From the NCBI RefSeq assembly GCF_013403975.1, contig NZ_JABFDH010000003.1:1-64000 (forward strand): a DNA stretch of 64,000 bases, written 5' to 3'. The stretch comes from Winogradskyella ursingii. GTDB lineage: Bacteria; Bacteroidota; Bacteroidia; Flavobacteriales; Flavobacteriaceae. This document shows positions 29,743 through 64,000 of the stretch, piece after piece. How positions within the stretch are numbered: position 1 is the first letter of the stretch; every line of letters begins with the position of its first letter. The position numbers were made by a program, and so were the translations under genes. The notes beneath the pieces are model-generated. The model searched no databases. It was not told the DNA's origin and was given only the letters and a program-made list of their open reading frames with translations.

Positions 29743-29893
29743 TAAAAGAATCTTAAAACGCTATACAAGGTGATTAAGACTTATTAACCTTTAAATAATG
29801 TGGTTAACAATTCTTTGATAATCTTTTAAAATACCATTAAGCTTAGGGTAACAACAGTGTGGTTAATTTGTAGAAAATTAATCAACACTAAAA

Positions 29894-31345
29894 ATGAAAA
29901 CATTAAAAAAATTAAGTGCATTAACACTATCACTATTAGTATTTGCATCATGTAACAATGATGATGATTATTCTAATAATAATGAGTCTGTAAATCTTGT
30001 AGATCTGCAAGCACATTCTGTAACATCAAATTACTTACAGTTAACTCCAGAGTTTTCTTCTGTAAGTATCTTGCCACTTTTATCATCTCAAGATCAACTA
30101 TCAGAGAGTCCAGACTTTATTTTTGGTTCTATGGCAGATGGCACAGGACTTTTAAAAAATGAAGATGATACTTTTACAATGATTACCAATATTGAAGCAG
30201 ATTTTTCTATTGCAAGAATCTCATTAGACGAAACATTTAAGCCTGTAAAAGGAGAATATATCTTAAATGCTGAAGCTACTGGTTTTACAGCGCAGTGCTC
30301 AGGGAGCTTAATTACACCGGAAGAACATGGTTTTGGACCACTTTACCTTTCAGGTGGAGAATGGGGAGGCGCTTCTAAAGGTGTATTTGTTACGGATCCT
30401 TATAAAGATGCAACTGCGGCTTCTTTTGGAAATATGTTAAACAATTTTGGGCAATGGTCAACAGAGAATGCTGTGGTAATTGGTCAAGATGCTTATACTG
30501 ATAAAACGGTTGCATTTATTGGTGATGACCATGCGGATAACGAAACTCCTTCAGGTCAATTAGGAATGTATGTAGGCGATAAAGGTGATCTAAACGGTGG
30601 AGTTTTATACGGCTTGCGCGTTATTGATTCTAGCATAGACTTTGAAATGGACATGCAAGAAGGCATGAGTTATCCAATTGACTTTGTCAATTTGTCAGAA
30701 ACTCAAATCGATATGTTGGATGCTGAAGCAAAAACTAAAGGCGTTATGGGCTTCTCAAGGTTAGAAGATATCGACTGGAGAAGAGGTTCTGCTGAAAATA
30801 ACAGGGAAATTTATTTTGCTGTTACAGGTCGTAAGAAAGATGGTTTATTAGGTAAAGGCACTTTTTATGGACGTATATATAAAGTAACTCTTAATGAAAA
30901 CGATCCTACAGGTGTTGGAACAATTACTTGTGTATTAGATGGCGATAAATTAGATGGTAAAGCAAAAATGTTCCATAGTCCAGATAATATCTTAGTAACA
31001 GAAAATTACGCTTACATCCAAGAAGATCCTAATGGTTATTTTGATACGGCAGACAAAACACATTATGCACGTTTATACCAGTATAATTTAAGTACAGGAG
31101 AATTAAAAACAGTATTAGAGTGTGACCAAGCTACGGCAGCTGCTGAAGGCGTTGGTACAGCTACTGGTATTTGGGAGCTTACAGGTATGATAGATGTTTC
31201 TGATATAGTTGGTGTGGATGAAACGTTCCTTCTAATTACTCAAAACCACGGATGGGAAGGTGGTTTCTCTGATCCAATGGCAAATCCTACACCGTTTACA
31301 GGAGAAGGAAGTGTAGTGCATATTTTACAAGGATTAGGACGATAA
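29894..31345 (+). CDS. PhoX-like (DUF839) surface lipoprotein
   Basis: The 483-residue protein has a lipobox FASC at about residue 20 followed by NNDDDY, an acidic lipoprotein export signal suggesting outer-membrane display. Segments such as DGTGLLKNEDDTFTM, ARISLDETFKPVKGEY and HSPDNILVTENYAYIQED resemble the PhoX/DUF839 calcium-dependent phosphatase-like propeller, though the sequence is shorter and the metal-iron site cannot be verified by eye. Its stop is one base before the ATG of the diheme peroxidase gene, so the pair is coexpressed and probably works together. Confidence 0.72.
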   Translation: MKTLKKLSALTLSLLVFASCNNDDDYSNNNESVNLVDLQAHSVTSNYLQLTPEFSSVSILPLLSSQDQLSESPDFIFGSMADGTGLLKNEDDTFTMITNIEADFSIARISLDETFKPVKGEYILNAEATGFTAQCSGSLITPEEHGFGPLYLSGGEWGGASKGVFVTDPYKDATAASFGNMLNNFGQWSTENAVVIGQDAYTDKTVAFIGDDHADNETPSGQLGMYVGDKGDLNGGVLYGLRVIDSSIDFEMDMQEGMSYPIDFVNLSETQIDMLDAEAKTKGVMGFSRLEDIDWRRGSAENNREIYFAVTGRKKDGLLGKGTFYGRIYKVTLNENDPTGVGTITCVLDGDKLDGKAKMFHSPDNILVTENYAYIQEDPNGYFDTADKTHYARLYQYNLSTGELKTVLECDQATAAAEGVGTATGIWELTGMIDVSDIVGVDETFLLITQNHGWEGGFSDPMANPTPFTGEGSVVHILQGLGR

Positions 31346-31346
31346 T

Positions 31347-33137
31347 ATGTTAGAATATAATAGTTCAATACTAAAAAAGGCACATGCATTTACCATGTGT
31401 CTTTTTCTGCTTTTTGCATCTTCATGCAAAGAAGAAGAAAAATACATTAATAATCCGATTTCTAATTTAGAAGTAAATTATAAGCATCAGTTGCAATTGT
31501 GCATTGCTTATTTAGATAGTTTGTCAAATACTAACAACAGTGAAAAAAAAGTTGAATTTTATGTATTGGCTCGCAATAAATTTAAAGCCATTGAGCCCAT
31601 ATTATCCTTTGTAGATAAAAATAATTATAAGAGTTTAAATCAACCTAATATTCTTAAGGTCGAAGAAGAAGATGCAACAGACATAAAAAAGAATAAACCT
31701 TTTGGTTTTCAGGTTATTGAAGAGCAATTATTTGAAGGAGATTTGTCAGAGGAAGAACTAAATCAAAACATTACTAAAACGGAAAGCAGGTTACGTTTAA
31801 TAGAAAACAACATTCAGCTACAATTAAAAGATTACCATATACTTTGGTTAATACGCGACGAAATAATTAGAGTCGCTTTAACAGGAATTACAGGTTTTGA
31901 TTCACCTGTTTTTGAGCGTTCTTTAGATGAAGCTAAAATTAACTATGAAGCTATTCAAGCAATTTTAGAAGTGTACAAGATAAACTTCTCTGATAAGGAG
32001 TTGTTTAAAAGTTGGGAAGCAGAAATTACTAAAACAATTGAAGCTTTAAATACTGATTTTAATTCCCTTGATCGTTACAGTTTTATAAAAAACCATACAC
32101 ACAAACAGTTAAAGTTAATTTTAGAAACTAAAGCAGATTGGAAAACCAATTTCCCTTTTGAATTAGCATTTAAAAACGATGTTACCTCGTTGTTTTCTAA
32201 TGAAACATTTAATATCGATTTCTTTTCGGATTATAAGGCAGAAAATTCTGGAAACTCGGATATAGTAAAACTTGGAAATCAACTTTTTAATGATAAGCGT
32301 TTATCGATAAATAACGATATGAGTTGCGCCACATGCCATCATAGCGATAAAGCGTTTGCTGATGGTTTAAAAACTTTCCCAAAACAAATACGTAATACAC
32401 CGACATTAAACTATTCGGCATTGCAACAAAGCTATTTTTATGATGGTCGTGCTGGTAGTTTAGAAGGCCAAGTTGCTGCGGTAGTAAAAAATAAAAACGA
32501 ATTTCATAGTGATTTGGAAACCATGAAAAAAGCTGTTGAAAGTGATTCTAGTTATGTTAATGCTTTTAGAACCTATTATAAAGGAAAAGTAAATTACAAT
32601 TCTATAAGAAATGCTATTGCAACTTATATAAGAAGTTTGAGTCCTTTTAATTCTAAGTTCGACAACAACATTAATGACTTAGAACAAACCCTTACGGATA
32701 ATGAAAAAAATGGATTTAATCTCTTTATGGGAAAGGCCAAATGTGCGACTTGCCATTTTGCACCTTTGTTCAACGGCACTGTACCACCTAATTACAATGA
32801 ATCCGAGTTTGAGTTACTAGGTGTGCCAAAAGACACATTAAATCCTACAGAAGTAGATACCGATTTAGGACGTTATGATTTATTTAAAACAGAAGAGCGT
32901 AAACATTTCTTTAAAACACCTACAGTTAGAAATGTGGCAAAAACAGCGCCATATATGCACAATGGCGTGTATATGACTTTAGAGCAGGTAATAGAATTTT
33001 ATAATAATGGAGGAGGAAGTGGTCTAGGTATAGTGTTAGAGTTTCAGACTTTGCCTTCGGACTCATTAAATTTAACAGAGAATGAAATTAAAGATATAAT
33101 TAGTTTTATGAATGGTTTAACCGATAACAATCCGTAA
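31347..33137 (+). CDS. Diheme cytochrome c peroxidase/MauG-type lipoprotein with imelysin-like N-terminal half
   Basis: The 596-residue protein has a lipobox FASSC (about residue 27). Residues about 40-270 are helical, with RNKFKAIEPILSF and PFGFQVIEEQLFEGD, resembling imelysin/EfeO-like domains. The C-terminal half is a MauG/CcpA peroxidase with two c-type heme sites, C327-ATC-H331 and C466-ATC-H470, and the motif TPTVRNVAKTAPYMHNG. Such enzymes reduce peroxide or oxidise protein partners in the periplasm or at the surface. Fusion with an imelysin-like domain suggests a link to metal uptake or substrate capture. A hairpin terminator at 33158 follows. Confidence 0.85.
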   Translation: MLEYNSSILKKAHAFTMCLFLLFASSCKEEEKYINNPISNLEVNYKHQLQLCIAYLDSLSNTNNSEKKVEFYVLARNKFKAIEPILSFVDKNNYKSLNQPNILKVEEEDATDIKKNKPFGFQVIEEQLFEGDLSEEELNQNITKTESRLRLIENNIQLQLKDYHILWLIRDEIIRVALTGITGFDSPVFERSLDEAKINYEAIQAILEVYKINFSDKELFKSWEAEITKTIEALNTDFNSLDRYSFIKNHTHKQLKLILETKADWKTNFPFELAFKNDVTSLFSNETFNIDFFSDYKAENSGNSDIVKLGNQLFNDKRLSINNDMSCATCHHSDKAFADGLKTFPKQIRNTPTLNYSALQQSYFYDGRAGSLEGQVAAVVKNKNEFHSDLETMKKAVESDSSYVNAFRTYYKGKVNYNSIRNAIATYIRSLSPFNSKFDNNINDLEQTLTDNEKNGFNLFMGKAKCATCHFAPLFNGTVPPNYNESEFELLGVPKDTLNPTEVDTDLGRYDLFKTEERKHFFKTPTVRNVAKTAPYMHNGVYMTLEQVIEFYNNGGGSGLGIVLEFQTLPSDSLNLTENEIKDIISFMNGLTDNNP

Positions 33138-33236: not shown

Positions 33237-33905
33237 ATGCTAAAAGCCGTACTATTCGATATGGATGGTGTCATTGTAGATACCGAACCACTTCACAGAA
33301 AAGCCTATCATAAAATGTTTGATGAAGTCAATATTGATGTAGATGAAGAATTATACGAATCGTTCACAGGGCAATCGACTATTAATATTTGTAAGCGTTT
33401 GGTAAAGCATTTCAGCTTAAATAAGCAACCTGAAGAATTGGTTCAAATAAAACGAAGCAATTATAAATATCTGTTCGAAAATGACGAAGAATTATCATTG
33501 ATCGATGGTGTTTTTGACCGGATTAAAGATTACCATGAAAATAATGTAACACTTGTAGTGGCATCTTCAGCATCCATGAATGGCATTAACCAAATCTTTG
33601 AACGTTTTGATCTTAATCTATATTTCAGTGGCAAATTTAGTGGAGCAGATTTAAAGAAATCAAAACCGCATCCAGAAATTTTTCTTAAAGCTGCAGCTCA
33701 CACAGGCCATAACAAAGCAGAATGTATGGTTATTGAAGATTCTACCAATGGTATAAAAGCGGCACATGCGGCAGGCATATTTTGCGTTGGTTTTAAGAGC
33801 GAACATTCAACAGGGCAGGACTACAGTTTGGCGGATATTGTCATTTCAGATTTTAAGGAAATCGCTTATTCTAAACAAAATTTATTTTTTAATAAATACG
33901 ATTAA
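33237..33905 (+). CDS. HAD hydrolase, beta-phosphoglucomutase-like
   Basis: The 222-residue protein has motif I LFDMDGVIVDTEPLH, cap helices, motif II VVASSAS, motif III with the lysine in KKSKPHPEIFLKAA, and motif IV MVIEDSTNGIKAAHAAG. This is the subclass IA pattern of beta-phosphoglucomutases and related sugar phosphatases. Mutase activity is not certain; sugar-phosphate phosphatase is equally possible. No sugar catabolic genes adjoin it. Confidence 0.88.
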   Translation: MLKAVLFDMDGVIVDTEPLHRKAYHKMFDEVNIDVDEELYESFTGQSTINICKRLVKHFSLNKQPEELVQIKRSNYKYLFENDEELSLIDGVFDRIKDYHENNVTLVVASSASMNGINQIFERFDLNLYFSGKFSGADLKKSKPHPEIFLKAAAHTGHNKAECMVIEDSTNGIKAAHAAGIFCVGFKSEHSTGQDYSLADIVISDFKEIAYSKQNLFFNKYD

Positions 33906-62632: not shown

Positions 62633-64000
62633 CTATCCTCTTCCTCGTGTTCGTTTTGAACTCGATCTCGAAGTGCTTTTATTAGAGCTTCTGTTTGTTT
62701 TAGCTCTTGAAGCAGACGAGGACGTTTTTCTTCTATTTTGAGACACACTTCTTTTAGGTGTGCTTTGTGACTTTGTTCTACTAGATATACGATTATTTGT
62801 TATGCTCGGTTTTCTGGCAGAGGTACTTTTTCTTGTTTGTACTTTTCTATTGGACACAGAAGTACGGTTCTGAGTCACACTTTTTCTTGAACTTCTTTTT
62901 TGAGCAATATCACCGCTATTGCGTTGAGTTCTAATTTTTTGTGTAACTCTATTGCTATTTCGGGAAGTAGCGCTTCTATTGTTGCCTCTATTTACACTAT
63001 TATTAGAGCGTGTGGTTGTGCTCATATTGTCATTTCTATTCACTCTTTTATTTGAGCGAGTAGAAGTACCTCTGTTTGAGTTTCTGTTCACTTCAGTATT
63101 CGATCGCGTCGATGAACCTCTGTTTGCATTTCTATTTAAACTAGAGTTGGAACGTGCTGCCACTCCGTTATCATTTCTTCTCGAGTTGTTTCTCGAAATA
63201 CTCTTATTATTACGTGTTGCACCTGTTCTCGAAGCTATTGCCTTACTGTTTCTAGAGCGAGCAGACCTCGTACTGGCATATCTCGCGTTGTCTCTTCTTA
63301 CGCGCGTTTGGACACTTCTTTCCCTAGCATTTCGCGGTGTTTGAGCATATCTATTGCTATATCGAGTAGAATTTGTTCTTCTTCCGTAATCTCTATAACC
63401 TCGTCTTCCTATGTTATAGTGTCTCACGTTATTTCTGTATGGTCTGTAATAAACATACCTTACTGGAGTATAATATCTTCTGTACGGATTTACGTTAAGA
63501 ATACAATAATTTGCTGGTGGTACAGCGTAAAACCTGTGCCATGGTCTATAAACATAAGCTCTATTATACACGTTAATGAATCCATCATATCTCCAAAAAA
63601 CATTGTTTCTGTAGTAGACGTTAAGTCCACCAATTCTGTTAATGCGTCCAAAACCTGTATAGTTAATAATGATATCACCAATTTGATTTACCCTTCCATA
63701 ATAATCATAATAAATTGGTGTATTTTCAATTTGAATAATGGCTCCAAAATCATCATACTGTACGTAAGGGTTGTAATCGTAACCTGAGTTAAAGCTTAAG
63801 CTAAAGTTTCTGGTATTGATACCAACGTTAACGTTTGGTCCATACTGCGGAATGTAAAAGTCGAATTGACCATCTGCAAATACAGAAAATTCAATTCCAC
63901 CTTCATTAAATATGAAAGAATTACCATAACCTCTCACATAGTTATTCATTGAAACCTCTGCTTCTGATGTTGTGGTGGTTGATGCGAATGCCGCAGTGCT
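62633..64000 (-). CDS. Secreted basic Arg/Ser/Asn-repeat protein (5' end outside window)
   Basis: An in-frame ATG at 63949 is not the true start: the frame stays open to the window edge, and the extra 17 codons encode STAAFASTTTTSEAEVS, the end of a signal peptide and the start of the mature chain. Residues about 18-180 form a Tyr-rich domain with GGIEFSVFADGQFDFYIP, repeated YDDFGAIIQIENTPIYYDYYGRVNQIG-like segments and RYYTPVRYVYYRPYR. The rest, about 260 residues, is strongly basic low-complexity sequence including four 16-residue repeats. The family is not recognised. The signal peptide indicates export. Confidence 0.8.
   Translation of the reverse strand, partial: STAAFASTTTTSEAEVSMNNYVRGYGNSFIFNEGGIEFSVFADGQFDFYIPQYGPNVNVGINTRNFSLSFNSGYDYNPYVQYDDFGAIIQIENTPIYYDYYGRVNQIGDIIINYTGFGRINRIGGLNVYYRNNVFWRYDGFINVYNRAYVYRPWHRFYAVPPANYCILNVNPYRRYYTPVRYVYYRPYRNNVRHYNIGRRGYRDYGRRTNSTRYSNRYAQTPRNARERSVQTRVRRDNARYASTRSARSRNSKAIASRTGATRNNKSISRNNSRRNDNGVAARSNSSLNRNANRGSSTRSNTEVNRNSNRGTSTRSNKRVNRNDNMSTTTRSNNSVNRGNNRSATSRNSNRVTQKIRTQRNSGDIAQKRSSRKSVTQNRTSVSNRKVQTRKSTSARKPSITNNRISSRTKSQSTPKRSVSQNRRKTSSSASRAKTNRSSNKSTSRSSSKRTRGRG
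62945..63136 (-). repeat. Four tandem 48-bp repeats encoding an Arg/Asn/Ser-rich unit
   Basis: Four consecutive 16-residue copies with the pattern NRNxNRGxSTRSNxxV, the first being NRNANRGSSTRSNTEV and the last more diverged. The period of 48 bases holds exactly in frame. Confidence 0.85.

Follow-up and report, generated by a model that had tools for sequence, protein, structure and literature searches.

Gene pairs in which a PhoX-like phosphatase adjoins a MauG-like protein have been described in Flavobacterium johnsoniae, where Fjoh_2478 (PhoX-like) and Fjoh_2477 (MauG-like) were both upregulated at low phosphate, with transcriptome fold changes of 12.50 and 9.58, respectively (PMC8115612; unless a main text is mentioned, this and the other papers are cited from excerpts). 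Here, we analysed a pair of this kind, termed P and F, in a stretch of 64,000 nucleotides (hereafter, the window) at the start of contig NZ_JABFDH010000003.1 of Winogradskyella ursingii. P encodes a PhoX-like lipoprotein of 483 amino acids, and F encodes a lipoprotein of 596 amino acids that joins an EfeO-like domain to a diheme peroxidase of the MauG-like type. The pairing is genuine, occurs widely and is associated with phosphatases, and we regard it as somewhat probable that F acts outside the cytoplasm to mature ferric-iron phosphatases exported by Sec, the client at this locus being P.

When the F. johnsoniae enzyme (PhoX-Fj) was expressed in Pseudomonas putida without its MauG-like neighbour, no activity was detectable while other enzymes were active, and deletion of phoX in F. 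johnsoniae lowered the inducible activity (PMC8812569). One cause suggested by the authors was the need for a cofactor, phoX standing in an operon with a MauG-like gene in all Flavobacterium genomes (PMC8812569). The Fjoh_2478/Fjoh_2477 pair, which we presume from its description to be the counterpart of P-F, is thus alike in that a PhoX-like lipoprotein and a MauG-like protein are encoded in one operon; its induction at low phosphate and the suspected necessity of the MauG-like gene for PhoX activity are further points of likeness. Several Flavobacterium loci in our own set had the P-F arrangement (e.g., L150, L166, L178 and L181). In the excerpts of those papers, however, only the MauG half is named, with no EfeO domain, no PhoD or purple acid phosphatase (PAP) versions and no argument on Sec or twin-arginine translocation (Tat) export, and a remark on iron limitation in PMC8115612 does not concern the PhoX/MauG-like pair.

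A second related arrangement is that of BthA, a Tyr-ligated diheme enzyme of Burkholderia that is always near a putative PAP (PhosA) and for which oxidation of the partner was suggested (PMC6405878). Compared by description, BthA-PhosA and P-F both place a Tyr-type diheme enzyme near an extracytoplasmic ferric-type phosphatase, and, at the level of gene arrangement, P-F shows the pattern that defines this type, namely a Tyr-type diheme gene beside an extracytoplasmic phosphatase gene. The Burkholderia system differs in that no EfeO-like domain is mentioned in the excerpts and in comprising one phosphatase type in one genus. Fusions of imelysin-like with EfeB-like domains, forming a small group, were also mentioned previously (PMC3143127), in a paper whose main text does not contain the word 'phosphatase'. 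In an open-licence literature library, no papers were found on PhoX together with imelysin, those combining imelysin with cytochrome c peroxidase were, by their excerpts, on Leptospira only, and no excerpt connected F with its EfeO half or with several classes of ferric phosphatase. The initial annotation, made from the sequence of the window, had called the system uncharacterised. That description holds only in part: the Flavobacterium operon and the idea of a MauG-like cofactor are already in print (PMC8812569), and the present analysis adds the EfeO half, the range of ferric phosphatases and the contrast between Sec and Tat export.

Association of F with secreted phosphatases

Across 249 genomes of Flavobacteriaceae, 59 of 60 P loci lay within 600 bases of F, and the sixtieth was a second copy in a genome already holding the pair (four weak P matches, with E-values of 5e-4 to 9e-4, were excluded from the 60). 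The pair is therefore conserved beyond one strain, as the initial annotation had supposed. F was commoner than P, with 85 copies spanning both halves in 74 genomes of the family (86 rows were obtained, one of which, in genome G144, held the diheme half only). Where P was missing, F often adjoined other secreted phosphatases, including PhoX-like proteins with a type IX secretion system (T9SS) tail, PAPs and giant PhoD-LamG proteins, the last of which adjoined tandem F copies. Outside the family, the neighbours of F included normal PhoD and PhoX-plus-phytase proteins.

Neighbours were counted as matches, within three genes of F, to phosphatase profiles that had been built from phosphatases adjoining F. 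Of 40 family loci picked by hand (L064–L103, half of which were chosen because a P match was known), 37 had a phosphatase near F, as had 78 of 80 loci from named genomes (L104–L183, the top-scoring 80 among 551 confirmed relatives). The two exceptions in the latter set were a short contig (L177) and a locus with a PF04185 phosphoesterase (L183), which to our knowledge is not known as an iron enzyme. For 60 class-sample loci taken from the higher-ranked full-length matches (L184–L223 and L244–L263), the profiles gave 45 loci with a phosphatase, and correction by Pfam, which exposed two false matches to CotH proteins (L206 and L210) and added four missed phosphatases (L217, L218, L221 and L222), raised this to 47. 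Loci from other classes, used as an out-of-sample test, yielded a phosphatase match in 15 of 19 cases, with PhoX as the neighbour, and two of the four misses were at a contig end. None of 20 control peroxidases, the top of the stand-alone matches in the class sample, had a phosphatase neighbour.

In a tally independent of these profiles, Pfam families were assigned to 112 of the 120 genes immediately adjoining F in the 60 class-sample loci. Among the 25 commonest of the 103 families, T9SS tail ranked first (36), followed by PhoX (23), Metallophos (8), PAP N-domain (6) and PhoD (4); sulfatase had 3. The eight longest neighbours were excluded from this tally; six of them, scanned alone, comprised four phosphatases and two CotH proteins. 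Among the 80 neighbours of the control peroxidases, the 25 commonest of 136 families included M61 peptidase (6), CAAX protease (4) and MbnP (2), with no phosphatase among the 20 families having at least two members. A chance neighbourhood was rejected by the pair, profile and Pfam neighbour counts. Among the 141 genes on either side of the P-F pair in named genomes, no third partner recurred strongly in the 25 commonest of 142 families, the commonest being DUF2400 with 11.

Several further features of these loci were observed. The flanking genes (e.g., L104–L182) also included PPK2 polyphosphate kinase (4), ferritin-like (3) and catalase (2) families, of which PPK2 would accord with a link to phosphate. 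At L096 (G180:C65), the pair occurred twice in tandem on one strand (P-F-P-F), and at five loci (L106, L112, L113, L155 and L156) a second P relative of 530–546 amino acids, divergently transcribed and with a weak P-profile score (83–129), adjoined the pair but had no accompanying F. At L070 (G014), other genes intervened between F and a PAP located approximately 4.5 kb upstream of it, as if the usual cluster of PAP, tetratricopeptide repeat and F genes had been split. Very large secreted proteins with an N-terminal PhoD domain were encoded at L073, L081, G117:C7 and G084:C8, with LamG repeats detected by Pfam on L073, and in two giant PhoD proteins a PhoX match fell within the same open frame of approximately 2640 amino acids. 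One branch of F adjoined giant CotH-kinase/Ig proteins and, by Pfam, no phosphatase (L206 and L210, with L212 grouped here solely by a similar 307-amino-acid neighbour); judging from these neighbours, the branch may have a different client or have lost the link.

Phosphatase class and export route

The positions of PhoA, PhoX and PhoD relative to F were surveyed at a distance of 6 kb in 80 F-bearing genomes (six of 86 were left out). PhoX lay within this distance at 41 of 60 places and PhoA at none of 44; for PhoD, this was so in 5 of the 89 rows, and these five ranked among the 28 strongest (rows were merged by hand, from 55 to 44 for PhoA and from 62 to 60 for PhoX). The published metal contents are two Fe(III) and three Ca for PhoX, one Fe(III) and two Ca for PhoD, Fe(III) and a divalent ion for PAP, and two Zn and one Mg for Escherichia coli PhoA (PMC4223295). 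Taken together, the PhoX and PhoD neighbour counts and these metal contents therefore indicate that F follows ferric enzymes, PhoX above all.

It has been speculated that PhoX and PhoD use Tat because their iron is inserted in the cytoplasm (PMC4223295). A strict Tat motif (RRx[FL], then a hydrophobic residue or K/Q) was present in seven of nine classical PhoX proteins encoded away from F, compared with none of the 173 phosphatase-profile matches located up to three places from F; with a loose motif that also permitted RK and KR, the corresponding values were nine of nine and 6 of 173, and most of the six had MKRxLL-type starts. Four normal PhoD neighbours of F (L205, L207, L208 and L214) had neither the strict nor the loose motif. 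Three non-adjacent PhoX places fell outside this check. The idea that F-bearing genomes have no Tat was rejected, as TatC was found in 80 of 80 genomes, and Sec export is therefore not forced by the absence of Tat. Overall, the Tat contrast holds for PhoX, and adjacent and non-adjacent PhoD are not separated by the Tat motif.

P as a predicted iron-dependent phosphatase

Pfam assigned PhoX (PF05787) to P with 29.6 bits against a cut-off of 24, a weak match that is above the threshold. The structural model of P, built with 71 sequences (predicted local distance difference test score, pLDDT, 93.0), had Pseudomonas fluorescens PhoX (4a9v) as its top VIA-align match, with a Z score of 28.5, a root-mean-square deviation of 2.7, 376 aligned residues and 19% identity, in keeping with the PhoX-like propeller proposed in the initial annotation. 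PhoX was absent from the best 50 Foldseek matches for the model and was not found in a search of the PDB by sequence profile. A profile comparison of P with nine classical PhoX proteins gave a probability of 97.5% and placed Cys135 of P on the cysteine aligned with PhoX residue 179. The ligand positions of P. fluorescens PhoX, which we take to be Cys179 (presumably the iron-ligating cysteine), Glu273, Asp292, Arg385, Glu387 and Asp479, correspond in P to C135, E191, D212, R289, E291 and D364, each of which was conserved in 71 of 71 rows of the alignment, and the lipobox residue Cys20 was likewise invariant in the 71 rows.

A thiolate iron ligand is present in PhoX (PMC4223295), and the F. johnsoniae PhoX-like protein keeps nine of ten key PhoX residues (PMC8115612). 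P is thus similar to classical PhoX (4a9v) in its fold and ligand positions and is probably an iron-dependent enzyme that releases phosphate. It differs in that the classical form is exported by Tat (PMC4223295), whereas P is a Sec-type lipoprotein at 19% identity, and in that P adjoins F, whereas the nine classical cases were not beside F.

The two halves of F

The model of F was built with 77 sequences (pLDDT 91.5). Its N-terminal half, residues 34–268, matched seven M75-fold entries with Z scores of 19.7–23.4, namely E. coli EfeO (7wgu, 23.4), Algp7 (23.4 and 23.1), EfeM (7q1g, 22.8), an imelysin-like protein (3pf0, 21.9), ICMP (20.0) and IrpA (19.7). A profile of this half alone retrieved EfeO with an E-value of 1.9e-5 and EfeM and Algp7 with 0.006–0.008, and Pfam Peptidase_M75 was not matched by the F sequence in a Pfam scan. 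The imelysin/EfeO-like half proposed in the initial annotation was therefore borne out by the structural comparison. When the same profile was run against 296 genomes of the phylum, 51 matches were obtained in 47 genomes, and 48 of the matches fell within reading frames of 593–753 amino acids; this branch of the EfeO fold is therefore nearly always found at the length of the fusion.

The C-terminal half matched CCP_MauG (PF03150) with 135.9 bits, and its closest structures were MbnH (6e1c, Z 29.3), bacterial peroxidases (up to 28.7) and MauG (up to 27.7), consistent with the diheme MauG-type half given in the initial annotation. Both CxxCH motifs (C327/C330/H331 and C466/C469/H470) and Glu385, at the position of the catalytic glutamate, were present in 77 of 77 rows, and so was Tyr552, which by alignment is predicted to take the place of methionine at the position of the axial tyrosine of MbnH. 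The best NCBIfam match of F was to TIGR04039 (MbnH family). Membership of F in this family or in that of MauG (TIGR03791) was rejected, the scores being 175.5 against a cut-off of 362.85 bits and 133.1 against 443.85 bits, respectively. F thus shares the diheme fold and tyrosine position with MbnH and with the MauG of methylamine dehydrogenase (MADH), but it is far under the curated cut-offs and its partner is a phosphatase rather than MADH or MbnP. The diheme-only copy of G144 (L083; G144:C18) is a 336-amino-acid frame with 45% identity to the diheme half of F and no EfeO-like half, and its locus gave no phosphatase-profile match.

Proposed role of F

Phosphatases of the PhoX, PhoD and PAP types free phosphate from organic matter, and the many Sec-type versions in Bacteroidota raise the question of how these enzymes obtain ferric iron. 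A fusion that tracks three ferric enzyme classes and that was never beside PhoA here offers a testable answer. Relatives of F, which in Bacteroidota adjoin a number of iron-dependent phosphatases unrelated to one another, probably contribute to the extracellular activation of these enzymes. In the proposed mechanism, the diheme domain would oxidise Fe(II) using peroxide or another acceptor, the EfeO-like domain would hold the iron or dock the client, and, outside the cytoplasm, Fe(III) would be inserted into the phosphatase site; classical PhoX would have no need of F, as it would already fold around its iron in the cytoplasm before export by Tat. We infer this oxidation and placement of iron by F, and the main rival is a MauG-like oxidation of side chains. 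More tentatively, and with somewhat less confidence than an even judgement would allow, F may represent a dedicated ferric-cofactor assembly system outside the cytoplasm, duplicated and specialised for PhoX, PhoD and PAP, allowing Bacteroidota to use Sec (and T9SS) for their export and to load Fe(III) at the envelope; such a system had not been recognised before in the literature searched. Maturation by F could account for the lack of activity of a Flavobacterium PhoX expressed on its own, and it links F to the unexplained BthA-phosphatase pair of Burkholderia.

Several observations weigh against the maturation role. The inactivity in P. putida possibly reflects incomplete expression or localisation of the lipoprotein, as its authors also noted (PMC8812569). 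Thirteen of the 60 class-sample F loci were without a nearby phosphatase, which is unexplained, and some of these had CotH-kinase or M14-peptidase neighbours. The great majority of PhoD rows in F-bearing genomes (84 of 89) were not beside F, and five further PhoX proteins away from F had neither Tat motif. Among 22 strong non-adjacent PhoD proteins, 6 had a Tat motif and 16 did not, and Sec-type PhoD can therefore manage without an adjacent F. Finally, when the metal sites of EfeM (PMC9174327) were mapped to F by profile alignment, the HxxE histidine His126 corresponded to Gln122 and the site-IV glutamate Glu90 to Lys80, both in 77 of 77 rows and both a departure from EfeO, EfeM and the imelysins; because the metal site is altered, iron binding by the EfeO half is without motif support. 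Acidic ligands were kept at Glu83 (75 of 77 rows), Glu125 (76 of 77) and Asp185 (77 of 77), and imelysins without the HxxE histidine exist too (PMC3143127). The EfeO half may either dock the client or hold iron in some other way.

An unlikely reading, although the one that we take most seriously beside maturation, is that F acts on the phosphatase as a MauG-type oxidiser of side chains or as the maker of a cross-link or protein-derived cofactor, with the EfeO-like half docking the client. Such a role would suit the alignment of Tyr552 with the MbnH tyrosine, the rank of TIGR04039 as the best, albeit sub-threshold, NCBIfam match and the loss of the EfeO metal residues, which favours docking over iron carriage, and it is close to the suggestions made for the MauG-like cofactor (PMC8812569) and for BthA (PMC6405878). 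The clients, however, are unrelated in fold, PhoX being a beta-propeller and PhoD and PAP metallophosphatases, and what they share is ferric iron; no common residue to modify is evident among them, although no structure-based site search was made, and side-chain oxidation is also disfavoured by the lack of PhoA beside F at any of the 44 places.

Considerably less probable is that F serves iron uptake or mobilises ferric phosphate in the manner of EfeO plus EfeB, so that iron and phosphate are scavenged together. The fold of residues 34–268, the match to the EfeO profile and the joining of this fold to a heme peroxidase do recall EfeUOB, imelysin-peroxidase fusions were noted earlier (PMC3143127), three of the 141 pair-flanking genes were ferritin-like and eight carried CarboxypepD_reg_2, which is frequent in TonB receptors, and TonB receptors occurred near F at L215, L220 and L257. 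F departs from EfeUOB, however, in that its peroxidase is a diheme CCP_MauG enzyme within the same chain and in that no iron-permease family was among the 25 commonest of 142 in the flanks, where no family exceeded 11. The description in the initial annotation of a 'surface redox or metal-acquisition system' therefore seems less apt: maturation fits better than iron uptake because the partners of F are mostly secreted ferric phosphatases of unrelated folds and because expression of the presumed F. johnsoniae counterpart rises when phosphate is depleted (PMC8115612). A role of F as a generic peroxidase of the periplasm or surface, shielding the iron phosphatase from peroxide, would agree with the invariant heme motifs and Glu385 and with the close fold match to bacterial peroxidases, but is very improbable given that stand-alone peroxidases lacked such neighbours (0 of 20) and that the tyrosine ligand position departs from classical enzymes.

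Lineages and upstream sequences

On a FastTree phylogeny of 140 F proteins, partner type required 23 changes, compared with 83.7 after shuffling, and a value as low was reached in 0 of 200 shuffles. Relatedness contributes to this clustering of partner types, and several genomes carried F copies with different partners (e.g., G127 and G153).

Upstream of P, the spacing of TTAA[CGT] elements peaked at 11, 20 and 22 bases, at 25.0, 22.2 and 22.2 per hundred P upstream regions versus 4.1, 0.5 and 1.6 in controls, respectively. A repeat score of at least 12 was reached by 20 of 72 P upstream regions, 19 of 366 control upstream regions and 31 of 1440 shuffles. Spacings of 11 and 22 bases would suit a Pho-box-like operator, while that of 20 does not fit and is unexplained. 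The repeats upstream of the pair in the window were weak. Expression of P-F probably follows phosphate starvation.

The P-F locus and its surroundings

The features of the locus are listed in Table 1. As stated in the initial annotation, the two genes are one base apart, from the stop of P to the start of F, and both products are lipoproteins by their signals.

Table 1. Positions in the window of the P and F genes and of the features assigned to them
Feature	Position	Strand	Basis
P, PhoX-fold (beta-propeller) Sec-type lipoprotein, 483 aa	29894..31345	+	Pfam, model, VIA-align, family loci
P lipoprotein signal peptide and lipobox LVFASC, Cys20	29894..29953	+	read from sequence
P Cys135, aligned with PhoX Cys179	30296..30298	+	hhalign against classical PhoX
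F, EfeO-like domain fused to MauG-like diheme peroxidase, lipoprotein, 596 aa	31347..33137	+	
F lipoprotein signal peptide LFASSC, Cys27, then KEEE	31347..31427	+	read from sequence
F EfeO/imelysin-fold domain, residues 34-268	31446..32150	+	fold matches, EfeO profile
F diheme peroxidase domain, residues 300-594	32244..33128	+	fold matches, CCP_MauG
F first heme motif CATCH, C327-H331	32325..32339	+	sequence
F second heme motif CATCH, C466-H470	32742..32756	+	sequence
F Tyr552, putative axial-tyrosine position of MauG/MbnH/BthA	33000..33002	+	alignment with MbnH DIYSEGG
Weak TTAAC-like 11-base repeats, Pho-box-like, upstream of P	29804..29832	+	12/15 consensus positions

The surroundings of the pair were ordinary, with an acetyl-CoA synthetase upstream and a haloacid dehalogenase (HAD)-type hydrolase and a beta-lactamase-like protein downstream, as named from reading the translations. 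The HAD/phosphoglucomutase-like hydrolase (33237–33905) is on the same strand and begins approximately 100 bases past F. Further along the window, the minus strand at 62633–63949 encodes a protein with a long, basic tail rich in Arg, Asn and Ser. Two further CCP_MauG genes were present in the same genome, both on another contig. The canonical imelysin gene of the genome (L268; G000:C17:284978-285898) is apart from the P-F pair and is flanked by another lipoprotein gene and by a gene for an HTTM-like membrane protein, the latter named from reading its translation.

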